This document shows positions 3 to 12,073 of a stretch of DNA of 12,336 bases, piece by piece. The translations under genes were made by a program, and so were the position numbers. Below the pieces are notes generated by a model. That model was given only the letters and a program-made list of their open reading frames with translations, did not search any database and was not told where the DNA came from. Each line of letters opens with the position of its first letter. The stretch's first letter is position 1. Source of the DNA: Candidatus Latescibacterota bacterium (GTDB taxonomy: Bacteria; JAAXHH01; JABIQT01); NCBI GenBank assembly GCA_018667995.1, contig JABIQT010000895.1, forward strand, positions 1-12,336, in the 5' to 3' direction.

Positions 3-1403
3 GGCAACACGACTGTAAATCTAGGTCGTACGGCAACGAGTGGTGCACTTTTCCACCCGCCGCCGGCGCCTCAGCTGTCTGTTTTCCCAACCAATACCGG
101 TACAGTTATGTTGGCTTGGAAGAACAATGCTGAGACGGCAATTGATCCTGGTACCGGTGCGGTTGATTTCGCAAAATACCGCGTCTACCGTTCCTCAGGT
201 TTCATCGATCAGTTCCCGAGCGCAACTGTCGCTCATCCTATTGGCTACAATAGTACCATTATTCCGCCAAGCATGGGTTTGAGTGACGCAGCTACAGCTA
301 TCACGGATGTAACAGATCCAACTGCTGCAGCTGTAAAACTGTCCCATCCATACGCGCGCTTCATTCAGGAAGGGCTCGTTATAGGTGCAGATTATAACAT
401 CGGCCAGGTCTTTGACTTTATCTCGGCTGATGTGAACAAATTTGCAGCACCTCTCTTCGCCGGTCCGTACGTACAGATCGCCGAATTTGGGGGTGGTGGT
501 ACAGATCAGACGAATACATTCGCCCCACCGGCCCTTGTGACGGTGCCGAACCCAATTGCAGTCGAAGATCGTTTTGCAGGATTTCTGGGAGACACTGTTG
601 ACACCGTCCCCAGTTCCCGTCAGATCGTAGACGTCAATACGGGTAACGCAGCAGTCACGGCCAAAGCTGTTACCTTCCCAGCAGCACGTTATGACACCTC
701 AGTCTTTGCGAACGTTGACGGCATTGCTGTCGATAACAGATTGGCTGGCGGTTCAGGCTACATGTGGGAAGATTCCTCGCCGCTTATCGGCTTCAACTAC
801 TGGTACTACGTTGCCGCAGTTGATAACGAAAGCGCCGAGCAGCTTGATTTCGATAGTGTTCTTCAGGATCCTACCGGTTCAACGCGGACACAGTTGTCGC
901 GTACAATCGCTGGCTTGGAGAGCTTCTATACGATGAATTCGAATGGAACAGACGGACGCTGGCACGGAACGTTTCCGTACCGCGGCCGCACTGTAGGTCC
1001 GGAAGTCCCGGGACAGGAAGTTGTGCCGACCACGTTGGTACGGAATACAGTACCATCTGATCCAAATGACTTCTTGAATCTCGTGACAGTAGCTCCGAAC
1101 CCATTCGTCTTCCAGGCGCAGTGGGATCTGGCCGTACCTGGTCAGCAGTCGGTTAAATTCTTCAATATGCCAGTACCATCCCGTATCACGATCTTTGATG
1201 CGGCTGGGCTACAGGTACGTCAGTTCAACGTCCCGGATGCAAGTGAAACCGTGACGATTGGCGGCGTAGCAAGTTGGGATTTGAAGAACAACAGTAACGT
1301 CCCCGTTTCTGGTGGACTTTACATCTGCGTGATTGAGGCAGAACTGCCTGCAGGGAGCGGTAAAACGTTCTCGAAGACCTTGAAACTCTACGTCCGGCGG
1401 TAA
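3..1403 (+). CDS. Secreted protein with fibronectin-III-like region and C-terminal Por/FlgD-like sorting domain (5' truncated)
   Basis: The frame is open from the left edge, so the true start lies outside the window; 466 residues are visible up to TAA. An ATG at 108 exists, but coding-like sequence continues upstream of it, so it is not the start. The visible part begins with a Pro-rich linker, then a fibronectin-III-like region: strand LAWKNN, then KYRVYRS, and much later YWYYVAAVDN (about residues 267-276 of the fragment), separated by a long insertion. The last 100 residues or so (APNPF ... WDLKNN ... VSGGLYICVIE ... KTLKLYVRR) have the layout of Por/T9SS type A or FlgD-like C-terminal domains, which in FCB bacteria direct proteins across the outer membrane or hold them at the surface. 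The next gene is a PorV/PorQ-like barrel, which fits. The substrate or role of the protein is unknown. The domain call is from pattern recognition only. Confidence 0.8.
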   Translation, partial: GNTTVNLGRTATSGALFHPPPAPQLSVFPTNTGTVMLAWKNNAETAIDPGTGAVDFAKYRVYRSSGFIDQFPSATVAHPIGYNSTIIPPSMGLSDAATAITDVTDPTAAAVKLSHPYARFIQEGLVIGADYNIGQVFDFISADVNKFAAPLFAGPYVQIAEFGGGGTDQTNTFAPPALVTVPNPIAVEDRFAGFLGDTVDTVPSSRQIVDVNTGNAAVTAKAVTFPAARYDTSVFANVDGIAVDNRLAGGSGYMWEDSSPLIGFNYWYYVAAVDNESAEQLDFDSVLQDPTGSTRTQLSRTIAGLESFYTMNSNGTDGRWHGTFPYRGRTVGPEVPGQEVVPTTLVRNTVPSDPNDFLNLVTVAPNPFVFQAQWDLAVPGQQSVKFFNMPVPSRITIFDAAGLQVRQFNVPDASETVTIGGVASWDLKNNSNVPVSGGLYICVIEAELPAGSGKTFSKTLKLYVRR

Positions 1404-1410
1404 ATCGGTT

Positions 1411-1442
1411 TGTTGTGCGCCCTGAATACGGGGCGCACAACA
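1411..1442 (+). other. Intercistronic perfect inverted repeat (12-bp stem, 8-nt loop)
   Basis: Arms TGTTGTGCGCCC (1411-1422) and GGGCGCACAACA (1431-1442) are exactly complementary around the loop TGAATACG. The hairpin starts 7 bases after the upstream stop codon and ends 13 bases before the Shine-Dalgarno sequence of the next gene. No U-run follows, so it is not a classical rho-independent terminator. It could protect the 3' end of the upstream message, act as a partial terminator between the cargo and barrel genes, or be a processing site. Confidence 0.75.
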
Positions 1443-1455
1443 ACTATATCGTTTC

Positions 1456-1461
1456 AGGAGG
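1456..1461 (+). promoter_or_regulatory. Consensus Shine-Dalgarno AGGAGG fixing the PorV-like start
   Basis: A full AGGAGG lies 8 bases before the ATG at 1470. It settles the start at 1470 and not the in-frame ATG at 1410, which would translate through the hairpin and give no signal peptide at the N-terminus. Confidence 0.85.
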
Positions 1462-1469
1462 TCGTACTG

Positions 1470-2456
1470 ATGAAATTGATTACCCGATGGAGCGTGATTG
1501 CCGCCCTACTAGTGACCTTAGTGGGTCAGGCACACGCCGTCGAGAAACGCGGAACCGTAGCTGCTAAGTTCCTGACACTGGATTCCAGTGCCAGGATGGC
1601 CGGTCTCGCATCCTCGGCATCATCTTTTACTGATATGGGCGCCTTCTCAACCCTGATTAATCAGGCTGCGATGGTGTTTATTCCAGGCCGCGGCGCTGTA
1701 GCTGTCACATATGCGAAGTATTTCGCAGATATGACACTCTTCAGTGGCGGTGTTGTTTGGAACATGGGAGACAATGGCGCGATTGGTTTCGGATTTCACT
1801 CGTTACTTTCGGGTGATATTCCGTTCTCAACGGCTACGGCTCCAACCAATGGCCTTCGTGCGTCGGCCGGTCTCGCTAATTTTACGGTGACCGATCTGGC
1901 TATCGGACCAAGCTATGCACGTCGCTTGACCGATGCATTTTCCGTTGGTGGTTCTGTTAAATACGTGTCCGAGGGTACAAGTGGTGCCGGCACATTGGAT
2001 GAGACGATTACAACCGTCGCATTCGATATGGGTACCATCTATACCACCGATTGGCACAAATTCCGTATTGGCGCAAGTTTCCAGAATTTCGGACCTGATC
2101 TTCGTTTCATCGCTGATTCGAATATCAAACAATCACTGCCCACGACCTTCCGTATCGGCTTTGCCGGCGAACCAGCCACATTGCCAATGGGAAGCGTAAT
2201 GCTCAGTGCTGAAATTTGGAAGCTCCGGGAGTTCGACAGTGTGTTGAACGTCGGCGCTGAATACTGGGTAAACGAATACGTTGCTGGCCGTGTAGGCTGG
2301 AGAGCAGGTTACAGTGGAACGGAAGATGAAGGAGTCTCCGCTGGTGCCGGCTTTAAGTTCGAGCAAGGAAGCTACCGTGTCGCATTAGATTATGCGTATA
2401 CGCAGTTCGATTTGCTTGATAACATCCATCGTGTCTCAGTTGGAATCGGCTTCTAA
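1470..2456 (+). CDS. PorV/PorQ-family outer-membrane beta-barrel protein
   Basis: 328 residues. An N-terminal signal peptide (MKLITRW, hydrophobic stretch, cleavage after GQAHA near residue 23) is followed by the mature start VEKRGTVAAKFLTLDSSARM. That matches the family pattern of a Gly-Thr start, a FL-x-hydrophobic segment and an SARMAG-type motif; the position usually reading NPA is here NQAAM. The rest alternates aromatic and small residues as expected for beta-strands and ends in GIGF, a barrel-like C-terminus. PorV/PorQ relatives are outer-membrane proteins; in type IX secretion PorV carries cargo to the surface attachment complex, but many paralogues in FCB genomes have no assigned role. 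It directly follows a gene whose product ends in a sorting-type domain, so a cargo-partner relation is plausible but inferred. A strong terminator follows. Confidence 0.78.
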   Translation: MKLITRWSVIAALLVTLVGQAHAVEKRGTVAAKFLTLDSSARMAGLASSASSFTDMGAFSTLINQAAMVFIPGRGAVAVTYAKYFADMTLFSGGVVWNMGDNGAIGFGFHSLLSGDIPFSTATAPTNGLRASAGLANFTVTDLAIGPSYARRLTDAFSVGGSVKYVSEGTSGAGTLDETITTVAFDMGTIYTTDWHKFRIGASFQNFGPDLRFIADSNIKQSLPTTFRIGFAGEPATLPMGSVMLSAEIWKLREFDSVLNVGAEYWVNEYVAGRVGWRAGYSGTEDEGVSAGAGFKFEQGSYRVALDYAYTQFDLLDNIHRVSVGIGF

Positions 2457-2518
2457 TCAGTGGTCCATTGAGAAAAGATGTATGCGAAGATACAACGTAA
2501 TTCGTGTTTAGTGTGAAG

Positions 2519-2567
2519 AGAGAGGGTCTCTCCGGTAAGCCCCGGAGAGACCCTCTCTTTGTTTTTT
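2519..2567 (+). terminator. Strong rho-independent terminator after the PorV-like gene
   Basis: A 17-bp perfect stem pairs 2519-2535 (AGAGAGGGTCTCTCCGG) with 2542-2558 around a 6-base loop. It continues into TTTG and then six T residues (2562-2567). It ends the left transcription unit and implies that the cytochrome operon, starting 60 bases further on, has its own promoter within roughly 2568-2627. I could not identify convincing -35/-10 boxes there. Confidence 0.93.
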
Positions 2568-2627: not shown

Positions 2628-4508
2628 ATGATAAGCACAGTAAAATCAATAATCGTTACGTCTGTTTTGCTGGTAGTGATCGCAATAGCAGGAAGCGCCA
2701 TCGCCGTTGAAGTCGACGGTGTGGTTACCGATGGCCGAACACCGATAGACGGAGCACGTGTCCGTGTCCACGGTCAGATCGATTTTACCGTAACGGATTC
2801 AGAAGGACGATTCAGCCTGTCATCACCAGTGGACGCACTCGGAGCAGTAGTTGTTACTGCCGGAAAGATGGGTTGGATAAACGGTGGCGTAAAGATCACA
2901 GCCTCAACCTCATTCACAACTATAGTTCTTGAAAAGCTCCCTGACGATGATGATCCCGATTACGAGTTTATTACACCACATAAATCTCTCGTGGATTTAC
3001 GACACAATGAACCCAAGCTGAATTCACTCCGTGTCAAATCACACGCCAAATTCAAGGAAAGCTGCAATCTTTGTCACTTTGAACCGACCTGCTACCTTTG
3101 CCACCGGGATATCTATAATCAATGGAGTCAATCCCACCACGCGCAGGCCGTAACCAATCCCTGGTTACAGGACATGTACAATGGGACAGATGCAGAGGGT
3201 AACGAAAATGTGGGTCCCGGATTTCGAATCGACTTTCCTGATGAGGAGGGAGAATGTGCCGATTGTCACGCACCTACCGCCGCGCTGAAAGCACCCGGGA
3301 AAACTGATTTGAAGGTTGTGTATAATCGAGGAATCGTAGCCTATCCCATTGAAATCGGGTATAAGTCATTCGAACAGAAAGAACGGGAACGACAAGCAGG
3401 TAGCGTTGACGCCACAGGCATACATTGCGATTTTTGTCACAAAATCAAGAATGTCGAAGTCAACGATCGGGCTGGTGTCAACGGCGCGATTGAAATGCAC
3501 CGCTTAACGCTTAAAGACGAAAAACGTGAAGCCGAAGGTCGTTTGCCGATGATATTCGCATACGGACCGTACGACGACGTCATCAATTTTTCACCCGTAT
3601 CAAATGCGGCCGTTACTTCGCCAATGGTGGCCAGTTACAATCCCATATATACTCAGAGCGAATACTGTTCCTCCTGTCATCAGCATCAAAACGAATTCGG
3701 AATGCCCTTCATGGATACTTATCGTGAATGGGAGGCAAGCGTATACAATGAGGCTGGGATAGAATGCCAGAGTTGCCATATGAAACCGGATTATGACCTG
3801 GGACGTGGCACTTTTGTCAATGGAGATGCTGAGAAATTCTGGACGCCAGTGGAGGCGCGTGATCTATCAACCGTCAAACGGCATGATTTCCTCGGTGGTG
3901 CAGAAGAAATGGTCAAGAACTCAGCGACGTTGGCCATATCGGCTGTGGCTGATACTTCCGGCATCTCGGTTGATATCTCTATAAAGAATGTCAGTGCCGG
4001 CCATCATCTCCCTTCCGGTATTACACTGCGAAACATGTTGTTACTGGTTACGGCAACTGACGCAACCGGTGATACGCTTGCCTATACAGGTTCTGAGCGT
4101 GTACCTGACTATGGTGGAATAGGAGCGATGGAGGACGGTAACTATGCAGGATATCCTGGTCGGGGCTTCGCCCTGATATTTGGCGATGATGAAGGGAATG
4201 AACAGGTCATGGACTGGCAAGCAACCCGCATCGTATCAGACACTCGAATTCCTGCGAAAGAAGTCGACCAGTCTGCATATCGTTTTGTATTGTCAAATCC
4301 CAACCAACCCATAAGCATACATACAAAGCTGATATATAGAAGAGCGTTCAAAGAGCTTGCCGATGAAAAGAAATGGGAGCTCATTGATATTACAGTGGCC
4401 GAAGATACGACAGAGATCGATCCCTCGTTACGGTTGAGCAAAAATACCCCGTCCGTGAGATTAAGTCTTGAGGCCCGTTTCAAACAATTGCTTGCGGCCT
4501 TACTCTAA
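2628..4508 (+). CDS. Secreted hexaheme c-type cytochrome with N-terminal carboxypeptidase-regulatory-like domain (cytochrome c554-like)
   Basis: 626 residues from the ATG at 2628. This start puts the signal peptide (MISTVKS plus hydrophobic run, cleavage near AIA26) at the N-terminus and has a purine-rich GGTGGA just before it; in-frame ATGs at 2559 (overlapping the terminator) and 2613 fit worse. Residues from about 27 to 105 form a carboxypeptidase-regulatory-like beta-sandwich (VDGVVTDG ... GARVRVHG ... TDSEGRFSL). Six heme-binding CxxCH motifs follow: C146-H150, C155-H159, C210-H214, C267-H271, C347-H351 and C380-H384. The contexts QWSQSHH and REWEASVYNEAGIECQSCHM resemble multiheme cytochromes of the c554 family. 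The C-terminal part has GHHLPSG (458-464) followed by a beta-rich domain, a tail often seen in this group. Expected role: electron transfer in the periplasm or at the surface. Hemes would be attached by a cytochrome c maturation system not encoded here. First gene of a five-gene operon. The electron partner is unknown. Confidence 0.88.
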   Translation: MISTVKSIIVTSVLLVVIAIAGSAIAVEVDGVVTDGRTPIDGARVRVHGQIDFTVTDSEGRFSLSSPVDALGAVVVTAGKMGWINGGVKITASTSFTTIVLEKLPDDDDPDYEFITPHKSLVDLRHNEPKLNSLRVKSHAKFKESCNLCHFEPTCYLCHRDIYNQWSQSHHAQAVTNPWLQDMYNGTDAEGNENVGPGFRIDFPDEEGECADCHAPTAALKAPGKTDLKVVYNRGIVAYPIEIGYKSFEQKERERQAGSVDATGIHCDFCHKIKNVEVNDRAGVNGAIEMHRLTLKDEKREAEGRLPMIFAYGPYDDVINFSPVSNAAVTSPMVASYNPIYTQSEYCSSCHQHQNEFGMPFMDTYREWEASVYNEAGIECQSCHMKPDYDLGRGTFVNGDAEKFWTPVEARDLSTVKRHDFLGGAEEMVKNSATLAISAVADTSGISVDISIKNVSAGHHLPSGITLRNMLLLVTATDATGDTLAYTGSERVPDYGGIGAMEDGNYAGYPGRGFALIFGDDEGNEQVMDWQATRIVSDTRIPAKEVDQSAYRFVLSNPNQPISIHTKLIYRRAFKELADEKKWELIDITVAEDTTEIDPSLRLSKNTPSVRLSLEARFKQLLAALL

Positions 4509-4526
4509 ACCAGACGAGCACTACTC

Positions 4527-6137
4527 ATGCGATACTTCATACTCTTATGCCTCCTCATCTCTATCTTTCTGCTCGAGGACACTGGTATTTTCATGTCCAA
4601 CCGTTCTCTCAGCCAAGCTAATCCAGAGCTCGAGCTCAATCCTGAAGATCGAGAGCGCCTCACGCGGGATGTATTTTATTTCAGGCAGCTGATCGATGAG
4701 AATCCGACGAATCCAGATCATTTCTTCAATCTGGGATTAGCTGCCTTGAATCTCGGCAAATACGATACGGCGGCAGCCGCATTTCAAGTAGTAATTGAAT
4801 TGCGATCAGAAGATGGTGAGGCCCATTACAACCTCGGCGTTATTCATACCAGGCAAGAGAAATACACCGAAGCGGCACTGGCATTCGAAGCCTCCACCAG
4901 ACTTCAGCCTGCTGATGCGAGATCCTATTACAATTTGGGATTGACGTACCAACAGCTCAATCGTTTCGTCGATTCGGTAAAATCATTGGCGAGAGCCGTT
5001 GAACTGGAAGAAGCGAACCCACGATATCAGTTTATGAGAGGGCGGACCGAAGAGAAACTTGGGGCCTACGATCAGGCTATTGCATCATACGCCAACGCGG
5101 CAGCGCTGGAACCAGCCAATCCTGATCCAGAACACGCCAAAGGCGTAGTCTTGGCCAGAATTCAACGCTACGAAGAGGCCAAGAGTTCTTTTCTTACTAC
5201 GTTGAGAATTGAACCGCGATATCCGGATGCCCACTATCAGTTAGGCTTGATCGCATTAACCGAAGGCGACATAGAAGAAGCCATCGCACAGCATCGAAGC
5301 GCACTTCGCATCAACCGCAACCACCGCCAGGCCCAATCCGGTCTTGGCCTCGCCCTTGCGAGAAGTGGCGAAATACAGGAATCGGTTGGTACCTACGAAG
5401 AGGCCGTAGAAGCCGCGCCCGAAGAGCCGTCCCTACACTACAGTCTTGGTATGGCCTACCTTCAGCGTCAACAGTATGAGGATGCGGAAAAAGCGCTTAC
5501 TCGAGCCATAGCACTTGACCCAGCTTACAGTGAGGCCTACTACGCTTTGGCCAACACGTTTACGGCACAAGGCAAAAACGAACAGGCTGAGGCCCAGGGA
5601 AGGATCTTTACCCGTCTGAGCGCGATCGAAAAGGAATTGACACAGGCATCCGATATGGTGAGACGATATCCTGATCGTGCAGAATCTCATTACAGTTTGG
5701 CGACAGTTAACGCAAAACTCGGAAAATACGAAACAGCAGTAGATGAATTCCGGATTGCCTCACAGTTGTCTCCAAATTTCGCACCTGCCCAGAATAATCT
5801 GGGTGTGGTACTTGTGGAGCTAGGAGAATTTTACGAAGCGAGAGACGCCTACCGCCAGGCCATTGAACTGGACCCGAAGTTCACCGATGCCTACACAAAT
5901 CTTGCTTGGCTGTACGCAGAATACGGGGAAGATTTGGATCGGGCTCTCGAACTCGCGGAGACAGCTATCAATCTATCCAAGGATACAGTAACACTAGAAA
6001 CTCTGGCCATGGTTCAAAATGCCAGAAAGGAATACTCTAGAGCAGACCGTACGATGGTGGCTGCACTTGAAACCGACAAAGAAAACGCGCTGTTAAGACA
6101 GCGGTGGGAAACCATGAAAACGAAAAGAGATAATTAG
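4527..6137 (+). CDS. Tetratricopeptide-repeat protein with N-terminal signal or anchor
   Basis: 536 residues. A short hydrophobic N-terminus (MRYFILLCLLISIFLL) could be a signal peptide, perhaps cleaved near SLSQA31, or a membrane anchor. From about residue 63 to 520 the protein is built of roughly 12-13 TPR units of 34 residues, for example at 63-96, 97-130, 131-164, 233-266, 301-334, 384-417 and 418-451, with typical endings such as AIELDP. A helical break near 361-382 divides the array into a block of about nine repeats and one of about three or four. TPR superhelices bind peptides or scaffold complexes, so here it probably organises the exported operon partners. The start lies 18 bases after the cytochrome stop. 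An in-frame ATG at 4593 would remove the hydrophobic segment and make the protein cytoplasmic; I prefer 4527 because the neighbours are exported, though neither start has a strong ribosome-binding site. Confidence 0.88.
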   Translation: MRYFILLCLLISIFLLEDTGIFMSNRSLSQANPELELNPEDRERLTRDVFYFRQLIDENPTNPDHFFNLGLAALNLGKYDTAAAAFQVVIELRSEDGEAHYNLGVIHTRQEKYTEAALAFEASTRLQPADARSYYNLGLTYQQLNRFVDSVKSLARAVELEEANPRYQFMRGRTEEKLGAYDQAIASYANAAALEPANPDPEHAKGVVLARIQRYEEAKSSFLTTLRIEPRYPDAHYQLGLIALTEGDIEEAIAQHRSALRINRNHRQAQSGLGLALARSGEIQESVGTYEEAVEAAPEEPSLHYSLGMAYLQRQQYEDAEKALTRAIALDPAYSEAYYALANTFTAQGKNEQAEAQGRIFTRLSAIEKELTQASDMVRRYPDRAESHYSLATVNAKLGKYETAVDEFRIASQLSPNFAPAQNNLGVVLVELGEFYEARDAYRQAIELDPKFTDAYTNLAWLYAEYGEDLDRALELAETAINLSKDTVTLETLAMVQNARKEYSRADRTMVAALETDKENALLRQRWETMKTKRDN

Positions 6138-6138
6138 A

Positions 6139-7311
6139 ATGCCCGGACTCACAGAACCCGCCAAGCAATTGAAGACGCTCACTCTCATCCTCACGTTAAC
6201 CGGCCTACTGGCAATGACCGCCTGCTCCGGGACAGACACACAATCCGATGGCATGTGGCGCGGCCGCATAGAAATCGAAAAAGGTGTGGAGAGGATCTAC
6301 AATGACTGGCCCATCAAACATCACCCGGACAGCCTGTTACAGATCAATTTCATCGAAGACTTGGTGATATCCGGTCAATCAGAGAATACAGAGAGCGCTT
6401 TCCCTCAGGCCTATGGAATAGCAACTGGTCCCAACAATGAAATCTACATCGCAGATGCCCTCAATAGCCGGGTGCTAAAATTCAATGAACAGGGAGAATT
6501 TGTAGCCAGCATAGGCTCCAAGGGGCATACACCTCTCCAGTTCCAGGAGCCGGTGGACATAGCTGTAGATGCCGAGGGTAAACTGTACGTGGTGGATTAC
6601 CAAATCCAGCGGGTTACCATATTCACACCGGACTTGCAGCTTCACGACATATTTCAGGTACAAGTGCGACAACCGCGAAGAATCCGTGTAGACGCGGAAG
6701 GTAAGATTCTCATCTTCGCGATTACTCAGCACGATTTGATCTACAAGTATGAAACCGATGGTTCGTTTATAGAATCATTCTATGACCCGCTTGAGTCCGT
6801 CCGCATCATGGGCGACTTGGATCAACTCATAGCATATTCCGATGCCGGTATCGCGACTACGGATGATGGCTACGTCTTCATCTCGGCCAGACATCCATAC
6901 AGAATCAGAAAATATGACCGTGTGTCAGGTCTCAACTTAGAATTCAGCCGAACCACTCCATTTGATCTATCGATGATAGATATGGGACTAGCGAGTGAAG
7001 AAGGTGTTACACCCGTTGGTCAGTCTGGCACTCTGGCTGTGCTGCCCGACGGACGGATTATGAATGTCCTTCAATACCAGGAGTTTACCGTAGATGGCTA
7101 CAACAGCCTCGGCAGACCGCAGCTAAAATTAACGAAAATGGACAGGTGGGTGGACCTATTCACCGCCGATGGGAAATGGGAGTTGTCCTCAAAGATTGAT
7201 GTGCCTGGATTCCCGGTACACACCGACAAAAAGGGCCGGGTCTATTTCAATGTGTTGAGTCCGCCGGGCATAGTGCGTTACACGCCAGAGTTTCCCGCGG
7301 GGGCAGAATAG
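6139..7311 (+). CDS. 6-bladed/NHL-type beta-propeller lipoprotein
   Basis: 390 residues. The N-terminus has a hydrophobic stretch ending LAMTAC29, a slightly atypical lipobox (Met at -3), so Cys29 is probably lipidated. The segment WRGRIEIEKGVERIYND (about 40-56) is typical of the region before the blades in the 6-bladed beta-propeller family. Blade-like repeats are clear: AYGIATGPNNEIYIADALNS, then RVLKFNEQGEFVASIGSKG, and PVDIAVDAEGKLYVVDYQIQ, with weaker ones through to KKGRVYFNVLSPPGIVRYTP at the end. NHL propellers are binding platforms without a common catalytic residue. The start codon lies one base after the stop of the TPR gene, indicating coupled translation. The ligand is unknown; a scaffold or docking role in the cytochrome assembly is inferred from context only. 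Confidence 0.85.
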   Translation: MPGLTEPAKQLKTLTLILTLTGLLAMTACSGTDTQSDGMWRGRIEIEKGVERIYNDWPIKHHPDSLLQINFIEDLVISGQSENTESAFPQAYGIATGPNNEIYIADALNSRVLKFNEQGEFVASIGSKGHTPLQFQEPVDIAVDAEGKLYVVDYQIQRVTIFTPDLQLHDIFQVQVRQPRRIRVDAEGKILIFAITQHDLIYKYETDGSFIESFYDPLESVRIMGDLDQLIAYSDAGIATTDDGYVFISARHPYRIRKYDRVSGLNLEFSRTTPFDLSMIDMGLASEEGVTPVGQSGTLAVLPDGRIMNVLQYQEFTVDGYNSLGRPQLKLTKMDRWVDLFTADGKWELSSKIDVPGFPVHTDKKGRVYFNVLSPPGIVRYTPEFPAGAE

Positions 7312-7850
7312 TGCGGATCTGGCTAGTTCTTGCTTTATGTGTCGTTCCTCTTCTATCATGCCAGCAGGAGATTCAGGACCCACCAGTGATTGGTGGTGTA
7401 TTTGTAGGCTACGATTATTCCGAAACACCCGTAGTAAATGAGGATGTGGAGATCGGTTCTGGCTATAGCCTGAAGTTTCGGGCATATGATCTCGGTGGCA
7501 ACGCCCGATTGATTGTTTATGCTGAAAAAGCAAATTCAGGCGGATACTACAATGGCATTATTCGAATAGGTATTCAGGATCCAGACGGGAATGCCTTCAC
7601 ATTCTATAGAAACCATGACGCCGAGGCCGTTGATGCACCCGTCATGTGGAAGCCAAGAACGGTCGGCATCCACAAGGTAACAATCAACTTGCAGGTCTTC
7701 GGTACTAATGAAAAACAGGCTTCTTTTGAAGTACCGTTCGTCCGTCAACCCGTCTCACTGGCCTTGATTGGCGGTATCGCCGTTGCACTCATCATAGTAA
7801 TCGGAATAATCGGGATGACCATCCGCAGACGTAACCGCTCATCCCAATAG
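7311..7850 (+). CDS. Small putative lipoprotein with Ig-like core and C-terminal transmembrane helix, unknown function
   Basis: 179 residues from a GTG start that shares its first base with the preceding TAG stop (TAGTG), strongly suggesting translational coupling. The N-terminus MRIWLVLALCVVPLLSC17 has a good lipobox (LLSC). Residues from about 25 to 145 are beta-rich: SGYSLKFRAYDLGG, RIGIQDPDGNAFTFYRN, a Trp-Lys-Pro segment, then GIHKVTINLQVFG. This strand pattern recalls Ig-like domains of the FixH/YtkA sort, but I do not claim homology. Residues of about 148-170 form a clear membrane helix, followed by IRRRNRSSQ, a positive tail expected to stay in the cytoplasm. If both signals are used, the beta domain sits in the periplasm, held to the inner membrane at both ends; if signal peptidase I acts instead, it is a type I membrane protein. 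It could be the inner-membrane anchor of the operon's complex. Tandem stops TAG TAG end it. Confidence 0.8.
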   Translation: MRIWLVLALCVVPLLSCQQEIQDPPVIGGVFVGYDYSETPVVNEDVEIGSGYSLKFRAYDLGGNARLIVYAEKANSGGYYNGIIRIGIQDPDGNAFTFYRNHDAEAVDAPVMWKPRTVGIHKVTINLQVFGTNEKQASFEVPFVRQPVSLALIGGIAVALIIVIGIIGMTIRRRNRSSQ

Positions 7851-7870
7851 TAGTCTCAAGGTTTTCATGC

Positions 7871-9637
7871 ATGCAAAAGTTTCACCTGGGCCGACATTTA
7901 AGGGCCCGGCTCCTCCCACTCTTCTTCCTTCCTTCACTTGTATTGCCGTTTGCATGCGGTGAACAGTCCTCCCAGACAATCGTACATGAAAATGAGAATA
8001 ATCCGGTAACTTTCAAAGATATCAGCCAGGCTTCCGGTATTGATTTCAGACATTCGAATGGCAAATCCGGCCAGTACTATTTTGTAGAAACCGTAGCATC
8101 TGGCGGCGGATTTATCGACTTCGATGGAGATGGCGACCTTGATGTCTATCTTCTGAACGGGGCGCCAATACCAGGATATGAACCGGAAACTACGCCCACC
8201 AGCGCCCTGTATAGGAACGACGGCAAAAATAGGTTTACCGATGTAACAACTTCATCTGGTATCGGAAACAGAGGCAACTATGGCCTCGGATTGGCCGTAG
8301 CAGACTACGACAATGACGGGGACAATGATCTCTTCGTAACAAATTTCGGTGCGAATGTTCTCTACGAGAACGATGGCGCCGGACGTTTCTCTGATGTCAC
8401 CACACGGGCCCGATTGCAAGTACCTTATACCCCTTATTTCTCTACCAGTGCCACATTCTTCGACTACGATCGCGATGGTGACCTGGATCTCTATGTGTGC
8501 GGCTATGTAGATTTTACGTTCGAGACAAACCATAGGTGCGTGAGGGACGGCATACAGTCGTACTGCGATCCCGACGTATACAACGGTGTTCCCGATCTAC
8601 TTTACCGCAATAACGGAGACCACACGTTTACGGATGTTTCTTCCGAAGCCGGAGTTGCCAGCGACCAGGGCAAGGGACTCGGCGTGGTCACAGGAGACTA
8701 CAACGGAGATGGCTGGCCTGATGTCTTTGTGGCGAATGATCGTGTTCCAGATTTCCTGTACCGAAACAACCAGGATGGAACGTTTACCAATGTGGCGCTC
8801 ATGTCGGGCGTTGCCTACGGTGAAGACGGAAGCGCACGTGCGGGCATGGGAGCCGATTTCGGCGACTACGACAACAATGGCACGATGGATCTGTATGTAA
8901 CCAACTTTTCGCTCGAGCCCAATTCCCTGTTCAGGAACAATGGGAACGCCACTTTCTCGGAGGTCACCTTTGGGACAGGGGTTGGTAATCCGACCTTGAT
9001 GTTTCTTGCCTTTGGCACCGGATTTCTCGATTACGATAACGATGGTTGGCTTGATCTATTCGCTGCAAACGGCCATGTGATCGACAACATCGAACTGTTC
9101 AATCAGGGCGTATTGTACGAAGAGACCAATCAGTTGTTCAGAAATGATGGCGCGGGAAGATTTAGGGACGTCAGTGAACAGTCCGGTGATGCTTTCGGAG
9201 TTCCGAGAGTTCACAGAGCTGCTGCATTCGGTGATGTGGACAATGATGGTGACACGGACATCCTCGTTACGAGTGTGAATGGCACACCGGAACTTCTGAT
9301 GAATGAGAACGGTAATAAGCGGAATAGCTTGACCGTGCGCTTGGTTGGTACCAGGAGCAATCGTAACGCAATCGGCGCCCGGGTGGCGTTGAGGGCAGAA
9401 GGACTGAGCCTTGTGAGAGAGGTGAAATCCGGATACAGTTATATGGCTGCGAACGATTTCCGGTTACACTTTGGCTTGGGAGGGGTGCCTCAGGTCAACG
9501 AGATAGAGGTCACATGGCCGGACGGCGGAACGGAGAATATCAGTGACGTAGGCGCCAATCAGATCGTCACAATTACAGAAGGAGCCGGTGCCACCTACCA
9601 GAATTACACATCTCCTCAAACCGAGGGAGTACCATAG
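7871..9637 (+). CDS. FG-GAP/VCBS-repeat protein with ASPIC/UnbV domain (CRTAC1 family)
   Basis: 588 residues. An Arg-rich start and hydrophobic segment end at LPFAC29, either a poor lipobox or a signal peptidase I site nearby. Seven Asp-rich calcium-type loops of the pattern DxDxDGxxD mark propeller blades: 83-91, 145-153, 198-206, 276-284, 332-340 (DYDNNGTMD), 387-395 and 455-463. Between the third and fourth lies a Cys-bearing insertion (C210, C223, C232 within RCVRDGIQSYCDPDVY), seen in bacterial CRTAC1-type proteins. Residues of about 485-570 are the ASPIC/UnbV domain: NAIGARVAL, VREVKSGYSYMAANDF, LHFGLGG, VTWPDGG. Such proteins are exported and probably bind calcium and ligands at the surface; no catalytic function is established. 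Last gene of the operon, 20 bases after its neighbour. CAAGG at 7857-7861 is a likely ribosome-binding site. An out-of-frame ATG at 7867 sits just before the start. The 3' end overlaps the converging flippase gene by 22 bases. Confidence 0.9.
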   Translation: MQKFHLGRHLRARLLPLFFLPSLVLPFACGEQSSQTIVHENENNPVTFKDISQASGIDFRHSNGKSGQYYFVETVASGGGFIDFDGDGDLDVYLLNGAPIPGYEPETTPTSALYRNDGKNRFTDVTTSSGIGNRGNYGLGLAVADYDNDGDNDLFVTNFGANVLYENDGAGRFSDVTTRARLQVPYTPYFSTSATFFDYDRDGDLDLYVCGYVDFTFETNHRCVRDGIQSYCDPDVYNGVPDLLYRNNGDHTFTDVSSEAGVASDQGKGLGVVTGDYNGDGWPDVFVANDRVPDFLYRNNQDGTFTNVALMSGVAYGEDGSARAGMGADFGDYDNNGTMDLYVTNFSLEPNSLFRNNGNATFSEVTFGTGVGNPTLMFLAFGTGFLDYDNDGWLDLFAANGHVIDNIELFNQGVLYEETNQLFRNDGAGRFRDVSEQSGDAFGVPRVHRAAAFGDVDNDGDTDILVTSVNGTPELLMNENGNKRNSLTVRLVGTRSNRNAIGARVALRAEGLSLVREVKSGYSYMAANDFRLHFGLGGVPQVNEIEVTWPDGGTENISDVGANQIVTITEGAGATYQNYTSPQTEGVP

Positions 9638-11073
9638 CCCATTTTCTGTTTCAGGAACCTTATCTCCTCAGATTCAAAAAACCCCATCAACACCAACGAC
9701 AGCGGGAACGCTCCCAGCAGAGCGACACGATAGATCCAGATCAACTCCCCGAATTGCGTGCCCACACTCCAAATGACACTGACTGCGACGACGATCCTGA
9801 GTAGCCTGGACCACTCATACTGTACAGGATAATAGCGTCGAGATAGCATGTAAAGTCCTGCTGCCAAAACAGCATATGCCAGCACCGAAGCGACCGCGGC
9901 TCCCTGCATGCCCAACGCGGGTATCAAGATCATGTTGGCCCCGATACTGGTGATAGCGGCTGCACCCGTCACCAGTGGCAGGTAGAGCGTTTTCTTCTCG
10001 ATGTATACGCCTGCCATGAGATTCACATAGAGTCCGTAAAGTATGTAAGCAAGGAGAAAGATGGGGACGAGGTCTGTGCCGGCCCAGTACGCACTCTCAT
10101 AGAATGTACGACTTCCAACCTGTAGACGAACCAGATCATCGACGAAGAATGAGATGACCAGGAAGGCGCCCCCCGTAATCGCAAGAAAATAGGTCAGTAC
10201 GCGCGAAAATACAGCCTTTGCATCCGCCTGTTCGGATGTTTCAAGAAAGAAGGGCTGCCAGGCCAAACGGAACACATTCACGAAAAGTAGCATACCCACC
10301 CCCAGCTTCCTCGCAGCACTATAAACGCCCACAGAGTCTGTTCCCATATACCGTTCAATCATGAACCGATCAATCATTTCTACCACGATGACAGCGGCAG
10401 CGGCGGGAATATATGGCAAGGCAAATTTGAAGAGTGCGGTGGCATGTTGACCGAACCATCCAGCTGCCAGATAACGTGCTGTAATGGCTGTTAATATCAG
10501 GAATGCCATCCCAGATCCAGCGATATTGCTGAAGAGGATTCCCTTGGCACCCATATCAAGAATAACAACAAGCCAGATGTTCCCTGCGAGTTCAAGGATC
10601 ACTTTCGCCAGTTTCAGGGATGCAAAAACGGTGGCACGACCTTCTCCGCGCAGCCTGGCAAAGGGAATAACGTTTAGGGCATCAAGGCCGAGTACGATGG
10701 CGGCGAGTTGTACGTATTCGACAAAAGCGCCGGATGGTGAAATGAGTGGCGCGAGTAGCGGGGCAGAAACGTAAACCAGGCCTGTCAGGACGACTGATGA
10801 GATCAGGAGGGTACGATATCCCGTACTCAGGATTCGCAATTTCTCAGACTTTTCTAAGAGGTAGTATCTGAGAAACGCTGATTCCATTCCATAGACGAAG
10901 AGCACATTCATCAGACCAATGAAAGCGTAAACCAACGTGACATGGCCATATTCAGATGTCGTCAGGAAGTTTGTATAGATTGGAACGAGAAGGAATGCAA
11001 TCGAGCGACCGAGTACGTCGCTGATACCGTACAGAGCGGAGTGGCTGAGCAGTCGCTTAAGGCTCTGAATCAT
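9616..11073 (-). CDS. Wzx-like polysaccharide/oligosaccharide flippase (MOP superfamily membrane protein)
   Basis: 485 residues, hydrophobic throughout, with about 12-14 predicted membrane helices. The N-terminus (SLKRLLSHSALYGISDVLGR, then LLVPIYTNFLTTSEYG) matches the start of polysaccharide transport flippases, and the middle segment GTDSVGVYSAARKLGVGM followed by FRLAWQPFF is also characteristic. Members move undecaprenyl-linked sugar repeat units, or related lipid-linked glycans, across the inner membrane for O-antigen, capsule or exopolysaccharide assembly; the particular glycan cannot be read from sequence. AAGAAG a few bases before the ATG is a suitable ribosome-binding site. It starts 16 bases after the stop of the PD40 lipoprotein gene on the same strand, so the two are probably co-transcribed. 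Its last 22 bases overlap the opposite-strand UnbV-protein gene. Confidence 0.88.
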   Translation of the reverse strand: MIQSLKRLLSHSALYGISDVLGRSIAFLLVPIYTNFLTTSEYGHVTLVYAFIGLMNVLFVYGMESAFLRYYLLEKSEKLRILSTGYRTLLISSVVLTGLVYVSAPLLAPLISPSGAFVEYVQLAAIVLGLDALNVIPFARLRGEGRATVFASLKLAKVILELAGNIWLVVILDMGAKGILFSNIAGSGMAFLILTAITARYLAAGWFGQHATALFKFALPYIPAAAAVIVVEMIDRFMIERYMGTDSVGVYSAARKLGVGMLLFVNVFRLAWQPFFLETSEQADAKAVFSRVLTYFLAITGGAFLVISFFVDDLVRLQVGSRTFYESAYWAGTDLVPIFLLAYILYGLYVNLMAGVYIEKKTLYLPLVTGAAAITSIGANMILIPALGMQGAAVASVLAYAVLAAGLYMLSRRYYPVQYEWSRLLRIVVAVSVIWSVGTQFGELIWIYRVALLGAFPLSLVLMGFFESEEIRFLKQKMGYGTPSV

Positions 11074-11089: not shown

Positions 11090-12073
11090 TTACTCGTGCC
11101 GTGTCCAGTCCGGACCGGATTCATCGTTGGCGTTGGACGTGAACCGGGTAAGTCCGGTACCATCCGAGTTGACGGAGTACAGATCCCGCGCTCGACGATT
11201 GAAGACATTAGTACCGGGGCCGGAGAAAAGGATACGCCCGCCATCGGGAGACCACGCGAGAGGGGCAGGAGTCACGATACCTGGGACCATAAAGGTCACC
11301 TGCCGAGGAACCAGTGATATCCCCTCGGCAATGAAGACTTGAAACTCCGATACTTTTCCCGGGTCTCCAAGAAATGCGAGTTTCTGACCGTCTGGTGACC
11401 AGCGTGGGAAATTGATTCTGTCGATTCCCACGTTCACCGTCGTCAGCTGCAGATCCGGGTAGGATAGGAGGTGGAGCGTGGCTCCGGGTAAGCCCGTCAC
11501 ATCCGTCAGGAATGCGATCCTATCGCCAACCGGTGACCAATCCGGCGCGAACCGATTGGGCAATGCATCCGCGACCCGCTGTCTCGCCAGTGTTTCGACG
11601 TCCATGATAAAGAGCTGGCGTCGGTCGGTCCGGAAGCCTCTTACATTATTGATCAGTGCTATGTGCTTTCCATCGGGAGACCAGGAGAACTCGAGGTCGC
11701 CTTCAGGATGGATTACGGGGTCGAACAGTCCTTCAACGTCCGTCCCGTCTTCACTGACCGTATACAGACGCCGGAATTGAGGGAGGCCTTCCCGGTCCGA
11801 TAGAAAGGCTATTCGCTTTCCGTCTGGAGACCATTTTGGAGCGAGATCTTCTGTGTTCGAATCTAGAACCCGACTTGGATTTCGTGGGTCATCAGGATGG
11901 ATTACGAAGAGCTGTGGCAGGCTGTTGACGAGCTCAGTATATACGATTCGGCCCCTCAACTGAGTGGGCCCAACGGAATCCTTCCTTCGGTCACAGGCTG
12001 AAACGCCGAGTAACTGAATAGCTACTAACATCAGAAGTAACGAAATGTCGCGGAGGGTCATAGACAATTTCAA
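11090..12073 (-). CDS. TolB/PD40-type WD40-like beta-propeller lipoprotein
   Basis: 327 residues. The N-terminus has a hydrophobic run ending in the lipobox GVSAC27, so Cys27 is probably lipidated. Five PD40 signatures mark the blades: WSPDG at 81-85 and 131-135, WSPVG at 179-183, WSPDG at 225-229 and 274-278; the last residues (PDWTRHE) look like the closing strand of a sixth blade. Known PD40 propellers include TolB of the Tol-Pal envelope system, but this one lacks visible Tol-Pal neighbours and should not be named TolB. A second in-frame ATG four codons later (12061) is possible; neither has a clear Shine-Dalgarno sequence. It precedes the flippase gene by 16 bases, so a link to surface polysaccharide export is possible but only contextual. 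Confidence 0.85.
   Translation of the reverse strand: MKLSMTLRDISLLLMLVAIQLLGVSACDRRKDSVGPTQLRGRIVYTELVNSLPQLFVIHPDDPRNPSRVLDSNTEDLAPKWSPDGKRIAFLSDREGLPQFRRLYTVSEDGTDVEGLFDPVIHPEGDLEFSWSPDGKHIALINNVRGFRTDRRQLFIMDVETLARQRVADALPNRFAPDWSPVGDRIAFLTDVTGLPGATLHLLSYPDLQLTTVNVGIDRINFPRWSPDGQKLAFLGDPGKVSEFQVFIAEGISLVPRQVTFMVPGIVTPAPLAWSPDGGRILFSGPGTNVFNRRARDLYSVNSDGTGLTRFTSNANDESGPDWTRHE

Follow-up and report, generated by a model that had tools for sequence, protein, structure and literature searches.

A candidate envelope electron-transfer operon of Candidatus Latescibacterota combining a hexahaem cytochrome with TPR, NHL, Ig-like and FG-GAP/UnbV proteins

The window analysed here is a stretch of 12,336 nucleotides (contig JABIQT010000895.1 of assembly GCA_018667995.1) from a 6.06-Mb metagenome-assembled genome (MAG) of a Candidatus Latescibacterota bacterium. 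It contains five consecutive genes, encoding a hexahaem c-type cytochrome, a tetratricopeptide repeat (TPR) protein, an NHL propeller, an immunoglobulin (Ig)-like protein and an FG-GAP/UnbV propeller. Based on the sequences, the five genes probably encode a single electron-transfer complex bound to the envelope, in which TPR and propeller proteins form the scaffold; we give this reading a probability of about 0.55. A haem carrier, a TPR protein and a propeller are found together or fused in other phyla, which suggests a little-described envelope electron-handling complex. The window was compared within a set of 16 genomes of the phylum, its own included; these are labelled mostly as Candidatus Latescibacterota and in a few cases as Gemmatimonadetes or Zixiibacteriota. 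The five genes and the features within them are:

2628..4508, + strand: gene 1, exported hexahaem c-type cytochrome (six CXXCH; Pfam; PDB 5ze8, E=2.9e-17; orthologues in 16/16 genomes)
2715..2918, + strand: CarboxypepD-reg-like domain of the cytochrome (PF13715, 5.9e-05, under the curated cutoff; SusC N-domain matches)
3063..3077, + strand: extra haem site CNLCH, 4 residues ahead of haem I (in 15/15 orthologues and in a paralogue on contig C129 of the same MAG)
3090..3779, + strand: five PHC-type haem sites, CYLCH, CADCH, CDFCH, CSSCH and CQSCH (at 3090, 3255, 3426, 3666 and 3765)
3915..4427, + strand: C-terminal Ig-like domain of the cytochrome, with the motif NVxxGHHxPSG (conserved; homologous to a domain in cytochrome–TPR fusions)
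4527..6137, + strand: gene 2, exported TPR protein (TPR_11, E=1.5e-59; hydrophobic N-terminus)
6139..7311, + strand: gene 3, NHL six-bladed propeller lipoprotein (NHL 1.5e-10, DUF5128; NHL structures, E to 2e-44)
7311..7850, + strand: gene 4, Ig-like lipoprotein with a C-terminal transmembrane helix at ~7758-7814 (structure model, lipobox)
7871..9637, + strand: gene 5, FG-GAP/UnbV (CRTAC1-type) propeller lipoprotein (FG-GAP_3 1.5e-54, UnbV_ASPIC 1.1e-19)
9368..9571, + strand: UnbV domain of gene 5

Association of the cytochrome with TPR and FG-GAP/UnbV proteins

In other phyla the cytochrome and the TPR protein exist as a single chain: natural fusions contain a membrane domain, five haems, an Ig-like domain and TPRs, and are followed by an FG-GAP/UnbV gene. 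Residues 152–599 of the window cytochrome are homologous to the haem–Ig core of these fusions (hhalign 99.2%, E 1.2e-19). The fusion or its close relatives are present in 40/149 Acidobacteriota and 71/246 Planctomycetota genomes; among the readable loci of the best-scoring hits, FG-GAP/UnbV is the downstream gene on the same strand in 22/28 and 28/30, respectively. Of 299 Pseudomonadota genomes, only the seed genome gave the fusion. Adjacency was also counted in nine genomes picked solely for holding a cytochrome relative: five C554–UnbV pairs on the same strand and within 5 kb were observed vs 0.55 expected (p 0.0003). The fusion and the recurrent FG-GAP/UnbV neighbour thus uphold a functional tie of the cytochrome to its TPR and FG-GAP partners; the dedication of the unit to the envelope is also supported.

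The window's own MAG contains a related locus on contig C129 (5822–14295), in which an Rrf2 regulator is followed by a cytochrome-b-like/tetrahaem fusion, a hexahaem cytochrome, and FG-GAP/UnbV, TPR and NapH-like iron–sulphur proteins. This hexahaem cytochrome is 60% identical to gene 1, and the FG-GAP/UnbV protein (38% identical) is a distant relation of gene 5. The locus, which was not found in the 15 relatives, is likely a quinol-linked version of the window cluster. On contig C1075, the end of another such cytochrome lies ahead of an FG-GAP/UnbV gene. Contig C272 of the MAG encodes a pentahaem–TPR fusion (5837–8410) with 69% identity to an Acidobacteriota protein; it represents either a recent transfer or a contaminating contig.

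Concerning the history of the association, a tree of 58 FG-GAP/UnbV proteins requires at least four changes of cytochrome linkage among well-supported branches. In this tree the FG-GAP/UnbV proteins of the window and of C129 stand well apart, though their cytochromes are close. One cytochrome type has thus joined different FG-GAP/UnbV lineages more than once, which a functional tie explains better than one frozen arrangement. In two Acidobacteriota loci (L213, 1472–9475; L214, 8358–16561) a pentahaem–TPR fusion and an FG-GAP/UnbV gene are followed by a protein with both TPR and FG-GAP/UnbV parts; in these loci the TPR, FG-GAP/UnbV and pentahaem domain types shuffle freely. In two other Acidobacteriota loci, genes for a b-tetrahaem cytochrome, an FG-GAP/UnbV protein and a TPR protein lie within a few kb of narG (nitrate reductase alpha), which points to respiration. 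In one of them (L208) the b-tetrahaem unit and narG are separated by genes for a sensor kinase and a sigma-54-type regulator, and in the other (L209) the copy was identified solely by its identical N-terminus.

The full set of five genes has a more limited distribution. Genomes of GTDB species were scanned with the cytochrome alignment, the exact peptide HCDFCHK or CADCHAP[ST] being required. Outside the clade, relatives of the cytochrome are at most 34% identical and are found mostly in Chloroflexota, Planctomycetota, Acidobacteriota and Desulfobacterota; they contain four or five CXXCH motifs, and one longer open reading frame (ORF) has eight. In the loci recovered, none of the other four cluster genes was found near these relatives, only occasional unrelated TPR or NHL genes. 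Conservation of the whole set across phyla is therefore rejected for these loci, in which the relatives stand alone, and joint conservation of the five families in distant phyla, which the initial annotation had suggested checking, is not supported: the scan found the full set in this lineage only. No homologue of gene 4 was detected in 40 Calditrichota genomes, and 28 genomes of other phyla gave one 18-bit match only in a search that did detect the positive controls. The lineage thus appears to be alone in having the set of five genes, the sixth haem and the Ig-like protein.

Organisation and conservation of the cluster

Based on the ORF coordinates, the gaps between the five genes are 18, 1, -1 and 20 bases, exactly as the initial annotation had given them, and its description of a self-contained unit also holds: the tightly spaced genes stand behind a strong hairpin and end at a converging gene for a polysaccharide flippase. 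All products have an export signal or an anchor, as had been proposed; three of them (NHL, Ig-like and FG-GAP) are lipoproteins, and the Ig-like one has its transmembrane helix in addition. The boundaries and neighbours are:

2517..2560, + strand: terminator-like hairpin between the upstream PorV operon and the five genes (19 pairs, 11 of them G-C, with a T-rich tail)
3..1403, + strand: upstream neighbour in a separate operon, C-terminal part of a ~1040-amino-acid secreted protein with an FlgD-like C-terminal domain (full-length orthologues in relatives)
1410..2456, + strand: upstream neighbour in the same separate operon, PorV/PorQ-family outer-membrane protein (NF033709, 173 bits, cutoff 90)
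11073..9616, minus strand: polysaccharide flippase, converging, with a 22-base overlap with the end of gene 5
12073..11090, minus strand: TolB-like PD40 propeller lipoprotein past the flippase (among relatives with sufficient contig reach, common to genome G001 only)

The order of the five genes is kept in all 16 genomes as far as the contigs reach: it is complete in 12 relatives, while a contig end truncates gene 5 in two others and gene 2 in one. The hairpin between PorV and the cytochrome is present in 16/16 genomes, including one locus (L031) in which its sequence is very different. The ratio of nonsynonymous to synonymous substitution rates (dN/dS), calculated for close pairs, is 0.06–0.12 for the cytochrome and 0.10–0.31 for the other four genes, which places all five under purifying selection. 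The shared order together with these ratios is more than chance adjacency of the five genes. A TonB-dependent receptor, the ~1040-amino-acid secreted protein and PorV precede the cluster wherever the contig reaches (window 3–2456; locus L023, 77–7462); these genes form a possible type IX-like secretion unit.

The cytochrome comprises an N-terminal CarboxypepD-reg domain, a PHC/c552-like haem core with a Cytochrome_C554 match, and a C-terminal Ig-like domain. Its N-terminus (residues 1–34) contains only a signal peptide-like segment and no four-helix cytochrome-b-like membrane domain. The profile match to pentahaem c552 of Thermochromatium tepidum (PDB 5ze8) begins at haem I, picks up again at haems IV–V and reaches the Ig-like domain; by its residue ranges it takes in four of the haem sites (I, II, IV and V) as well as the beginning of the Ig-like domain, the latter supported by the third stretch (residues 422–487). 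The ExtKL equivalog NF040886 gives 60 bits over a partial profile, below its cutoff of 250. The context of the sixth site, CNLCH, is CNLCHFEPTCYLCH. All orthologues and the C129 paralogue have this site. It is absent from a paralogue on contig C997 (33–36% identical), which lacks the whole segment of residues ~118–150, two conserved histidines included, and the tight CXXCH pair occurs in 0/69 relatives outside the clade; the sixth site is therefore a lineage-specific insertion, at which haem would be bound. On this evidence, the protein is a pentahaem cytochrome of the ExtKL/c552 (PHC) type to which a sixth haem, probably packed against haem I, has been added. The alignment also contains eight nearly invariant histidines outside the CXXCH motifs, with which each of the six haems could be bis-His ligated.

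Concerning the other products, the NHL and FG-GAP proteins have a lipobox cysteine in all orthologues. In the NHL protein, which has no CXXCH, the invariant Cys29 is encoded at 6223–6225. The Ig-like protein (179 amino acids) has an invariant lipobox Cys17 in its orthologues, and its C-terminal helix is followed by basic residues; no Pfam or NCBIfam family matched it. Its structure model, with a predicted local distance difference test (pLDDT) score of 74, is a beta-sandwich with a terminal helix (residues 150–177), and the sandwich matches Ig-like/cupredoxin-like folds at Z ~10, in agreement with the Ig-like character first assigned to gene 4. No function is assigned from this fold: copper-binding P19/FetP and CrdA rank among the first matches, and complement-type Ig domains follow within 1–2 Z units, so only the fold class is claimed. 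Gene 5 contains six DxDxDG calcium motifs, also found in the uncut orthologues, and scores 70.6 bits against UnbV_ASPIC (cutoff 23.4), which places it in the CRTAC1/UnbV-ASPIC group; it also matches the structure of cartilage acidic protein 1 (CRTAC1; 9etn, E=3.5e-27).

The proposed complex and its alternatives

In the proposed complex, the hexahaem PHC-type cytochrome would be a periplasmic electron carrier held by the TPR protein. The calcium-binding FG-GAP/UnbV and the NHL lipoproteins may act as rigid membrane platforms which dock the cytochrome to its redox partner, and the Ig-like lipoprotein would tether the complex to the inner membrane via its C-terminal helix. The cluster encodes no inner-membrane quinol oxidase and no porin–cytochrome conduit. 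In homologous systems a four-helix cytochrome-b-like domain is present as a fusion, or a NapH-like protein is encoded next to the other genes; since the cluster lacks such a membrane domain, electrons would probably enter or leave via a quinol-linked membrane protein encoded elsewhere. The sequences show the order of the genes, the signals for export, the haem sites, the homology to PHC cytochromes, the fusion of cytochrome and TPR and the recurring FG-GAP/UnbV neighbour; we infer that a physical complex forms, on which side of the membrane it lies, which way electrons flow and what finally accepts or donates them.

The same products could instead form a conduit at the cell surface. The cytochrome and the propeller lipoproteins would then sit on the outside of the outer membrane, brought there with the aid of the upstream operon (PorV, TonB receptor and secreted protein), and would feed electrons to an extracellular acceptor. 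Extracellular electron transfer has been linked to the PHC relatives ExtKL and GSU2801, and archaeal nanowires to c552 (PMC11976967). PorV and the secreted protein, which is CTD-like, are always upstream. The pentahaem C997 paralogue of the window's MAG (L037, 1388–3328, minus strand) ends in a sorting tail for type IX secretion, so that such a cytochrome may reach the surface. Sorting of lipoproteins to the outer membrane is judged by the E. coli rule on Asp at lipobox position +2. This position is not Asp in the NHL and FG-GAP proteins of the window, which fits outer-membrane sorting. However, the window cytochrome itself has no sorting tail, the conserved hairpin parts it from PorV, the cluster contains no porin–cytochrome pair, and the C-terminal helix of the Ig-like protein is of inner-membrane type; we consider a surface conduit unlikely.

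Several observations weigh against a single complex. Synteny runs past the operon on both sides, to the flippase behind it and to PorV, the ~1040-amino-acid protein and the TonB-dependent receptor ahead of it, so that gene order alone is weak evidence of a complex, and the NHL and Ig-like partners have no cross-phylum linkage. Many FG-GAP/UnbV genes adjoin a TPR gene and no cytochrome gene; the tie to cytochromes is thus not exclusive. The values of 22/28 and 28/30 overstate the average, because only the best 30 fusion hits per phylum were inspected and the search alignment was seeded partly from loci already seen adjoining UnbV genes. The MAG with the paralogous contigs has a contamination of ~4%, and the structure model of the cytochrome has a pLDDT of 44, with the beta-strands of residues 433–597 at low confidence. 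The equal synteny of the flanking genes on both sides and the missing linkage of the NHL and Ig-like proteins would also be expected of a historical operon, i.e. one kept by general synteny where rearrangement is slow, its products forming no common complex. The almost gapless arrangement of the genes on one strand, downstream of a conserved hairpin, and the recurrence of cytochrome, TPR and FG-GAP/UnbV across phyla, including as a fusion, make such an explanation improbable.

The least probable alternative is a redox enzyme, i.e. a hydrazine-synthase-like or nitrogen-oxide-transforming assembly of propellers and haem proteins: hydrazine-synthase homologues do adjoin an FG-GAP gene annotated as CRTAC1 (PMC12758564), in a Verrucomicrobiota locus (L152, 11100–15856) an FG-GAP/UnbV gene adjoins that of a ten-haem protein with matches to the beta and gamma subunits of hydrazine synthase, and the Acidobacteriota b-tetrahaem units lie near narG, but none of the five products is a hydrazine-synthase subunit and the histidines available for bis-His ligation of all six haems argue against it.

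Beyond the cluster, a broader proposal is more tentative: bacterial FG-GAP/UnbV (CRTAC1-type) proteins may include repeated dedicated partners of multihaem cytochromes, forming undescribed, widespread quinol-linked envelope redox complexes; the five-gene operon would be the Candidatus Latescibacterota form of these, soluble, rich in lipoproteins and with six haems. Acidobacteriota, Planctomycetota and Verrucomicrobiota have many UnbV/CRTAC1-type proteins, and no role for them in bacteria was found in the literature searched. The fusion and the repeated adjacency link many of them to multihaem cytochromes and make them testable as respiratory partners, which also offers a way into electron transport in marine and soil lineages that have not been cultured.

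Comparison with known systems

The view that no named system matches the cluster was close to correct. The PHC/ExtKL type, of which the cytochrome is a member, has been described (PMC11976967) and FG-GAP/CRTAC1 neighbours of haem proteins have been noted (PMC12758564), whereas no description of the cytochrome–TPR–UnbV association was found in the literature searched, which does not cover subscription journals. Searches for UnbV with multiheme, and for CRTAC1 with multiheme cytochrome and tetratricopeptide, gave no match there, and the only FG-GAP/UnbV (CRTAC1) genes reported beside haem complexes were those of the hydrazine-synthase-like clusters.

A porin with decahaem cytochromes of the Mtr type is not found at the cluster, which has a single hexahaem cytochrome and neighbours of the PorV and TonB-receptor families. 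In the homologues of hydrazine synthase, propellers with six and seven blades occur together with haem domains and with domains of the cytochrome c554 kind (PMC12758564). Their clusters resemble that of the window in having an FG-GAP/UnbV gene adjoining haem proteins and propellers; the window differs in lacking an alpha- or beta-gamma-type subunit. It was rejected as a hydrazine synthase, since the five products contain no dihaem gamma domain or haem-bearing alpha domain and the NHL propeller has no haem motif. In L152 and in a Bacteroidales locus (L165, 8615–13712), an FG-GAP/UnbV gene is found near a propeller-plus-haem protein; the match of the L152 protein to hydrazine synthase possibly widens the published range of such clusters.

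Gene 5 shares with CRTAC1 (PDB 9etn) the FG-GAP propeller and the UnbV domain; it differs in being a bacterial lipoprotein linked to a cytochrome. The pentahaem–Ig–TPR fusion system of Acidobacteriota and Planctomycetota has the homologous haem–Ig core, the TPR and the FG-GAP/UnbV protein in the same order as the window. In that system, however, cytochrome and TPR are joined in a single polypeptide that has five haems and begins with a four-helix membrane domain, and its loci contain no NHL or Ig-like lipoprotein.

The PHC family unites ExtKL, GSU2801 and c552, and includes the Ig-like domain (PMC11976967). Compared with its members (Geobacter ExtKL and GSU2801, the PHC of cable bacteria and c552 of T. 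tepidum), the window cytochrome has the same haem I start (CXXCH-x-IYxQWxxSxHA), five haem sites in the same order and a C-terminal Ig-like domain. It differs from them in the sixth haem site CNLCH, the N-terminal CarboxypepD-reg domain and the TPR, NHL, Ig-like and FG-GAP partners of its operon. The tight extra haem site (CXXCH-X4-CXXCH) is a concrete new feature in a cytochrome type that is discussed for extracellular electron transfer and nanowires.

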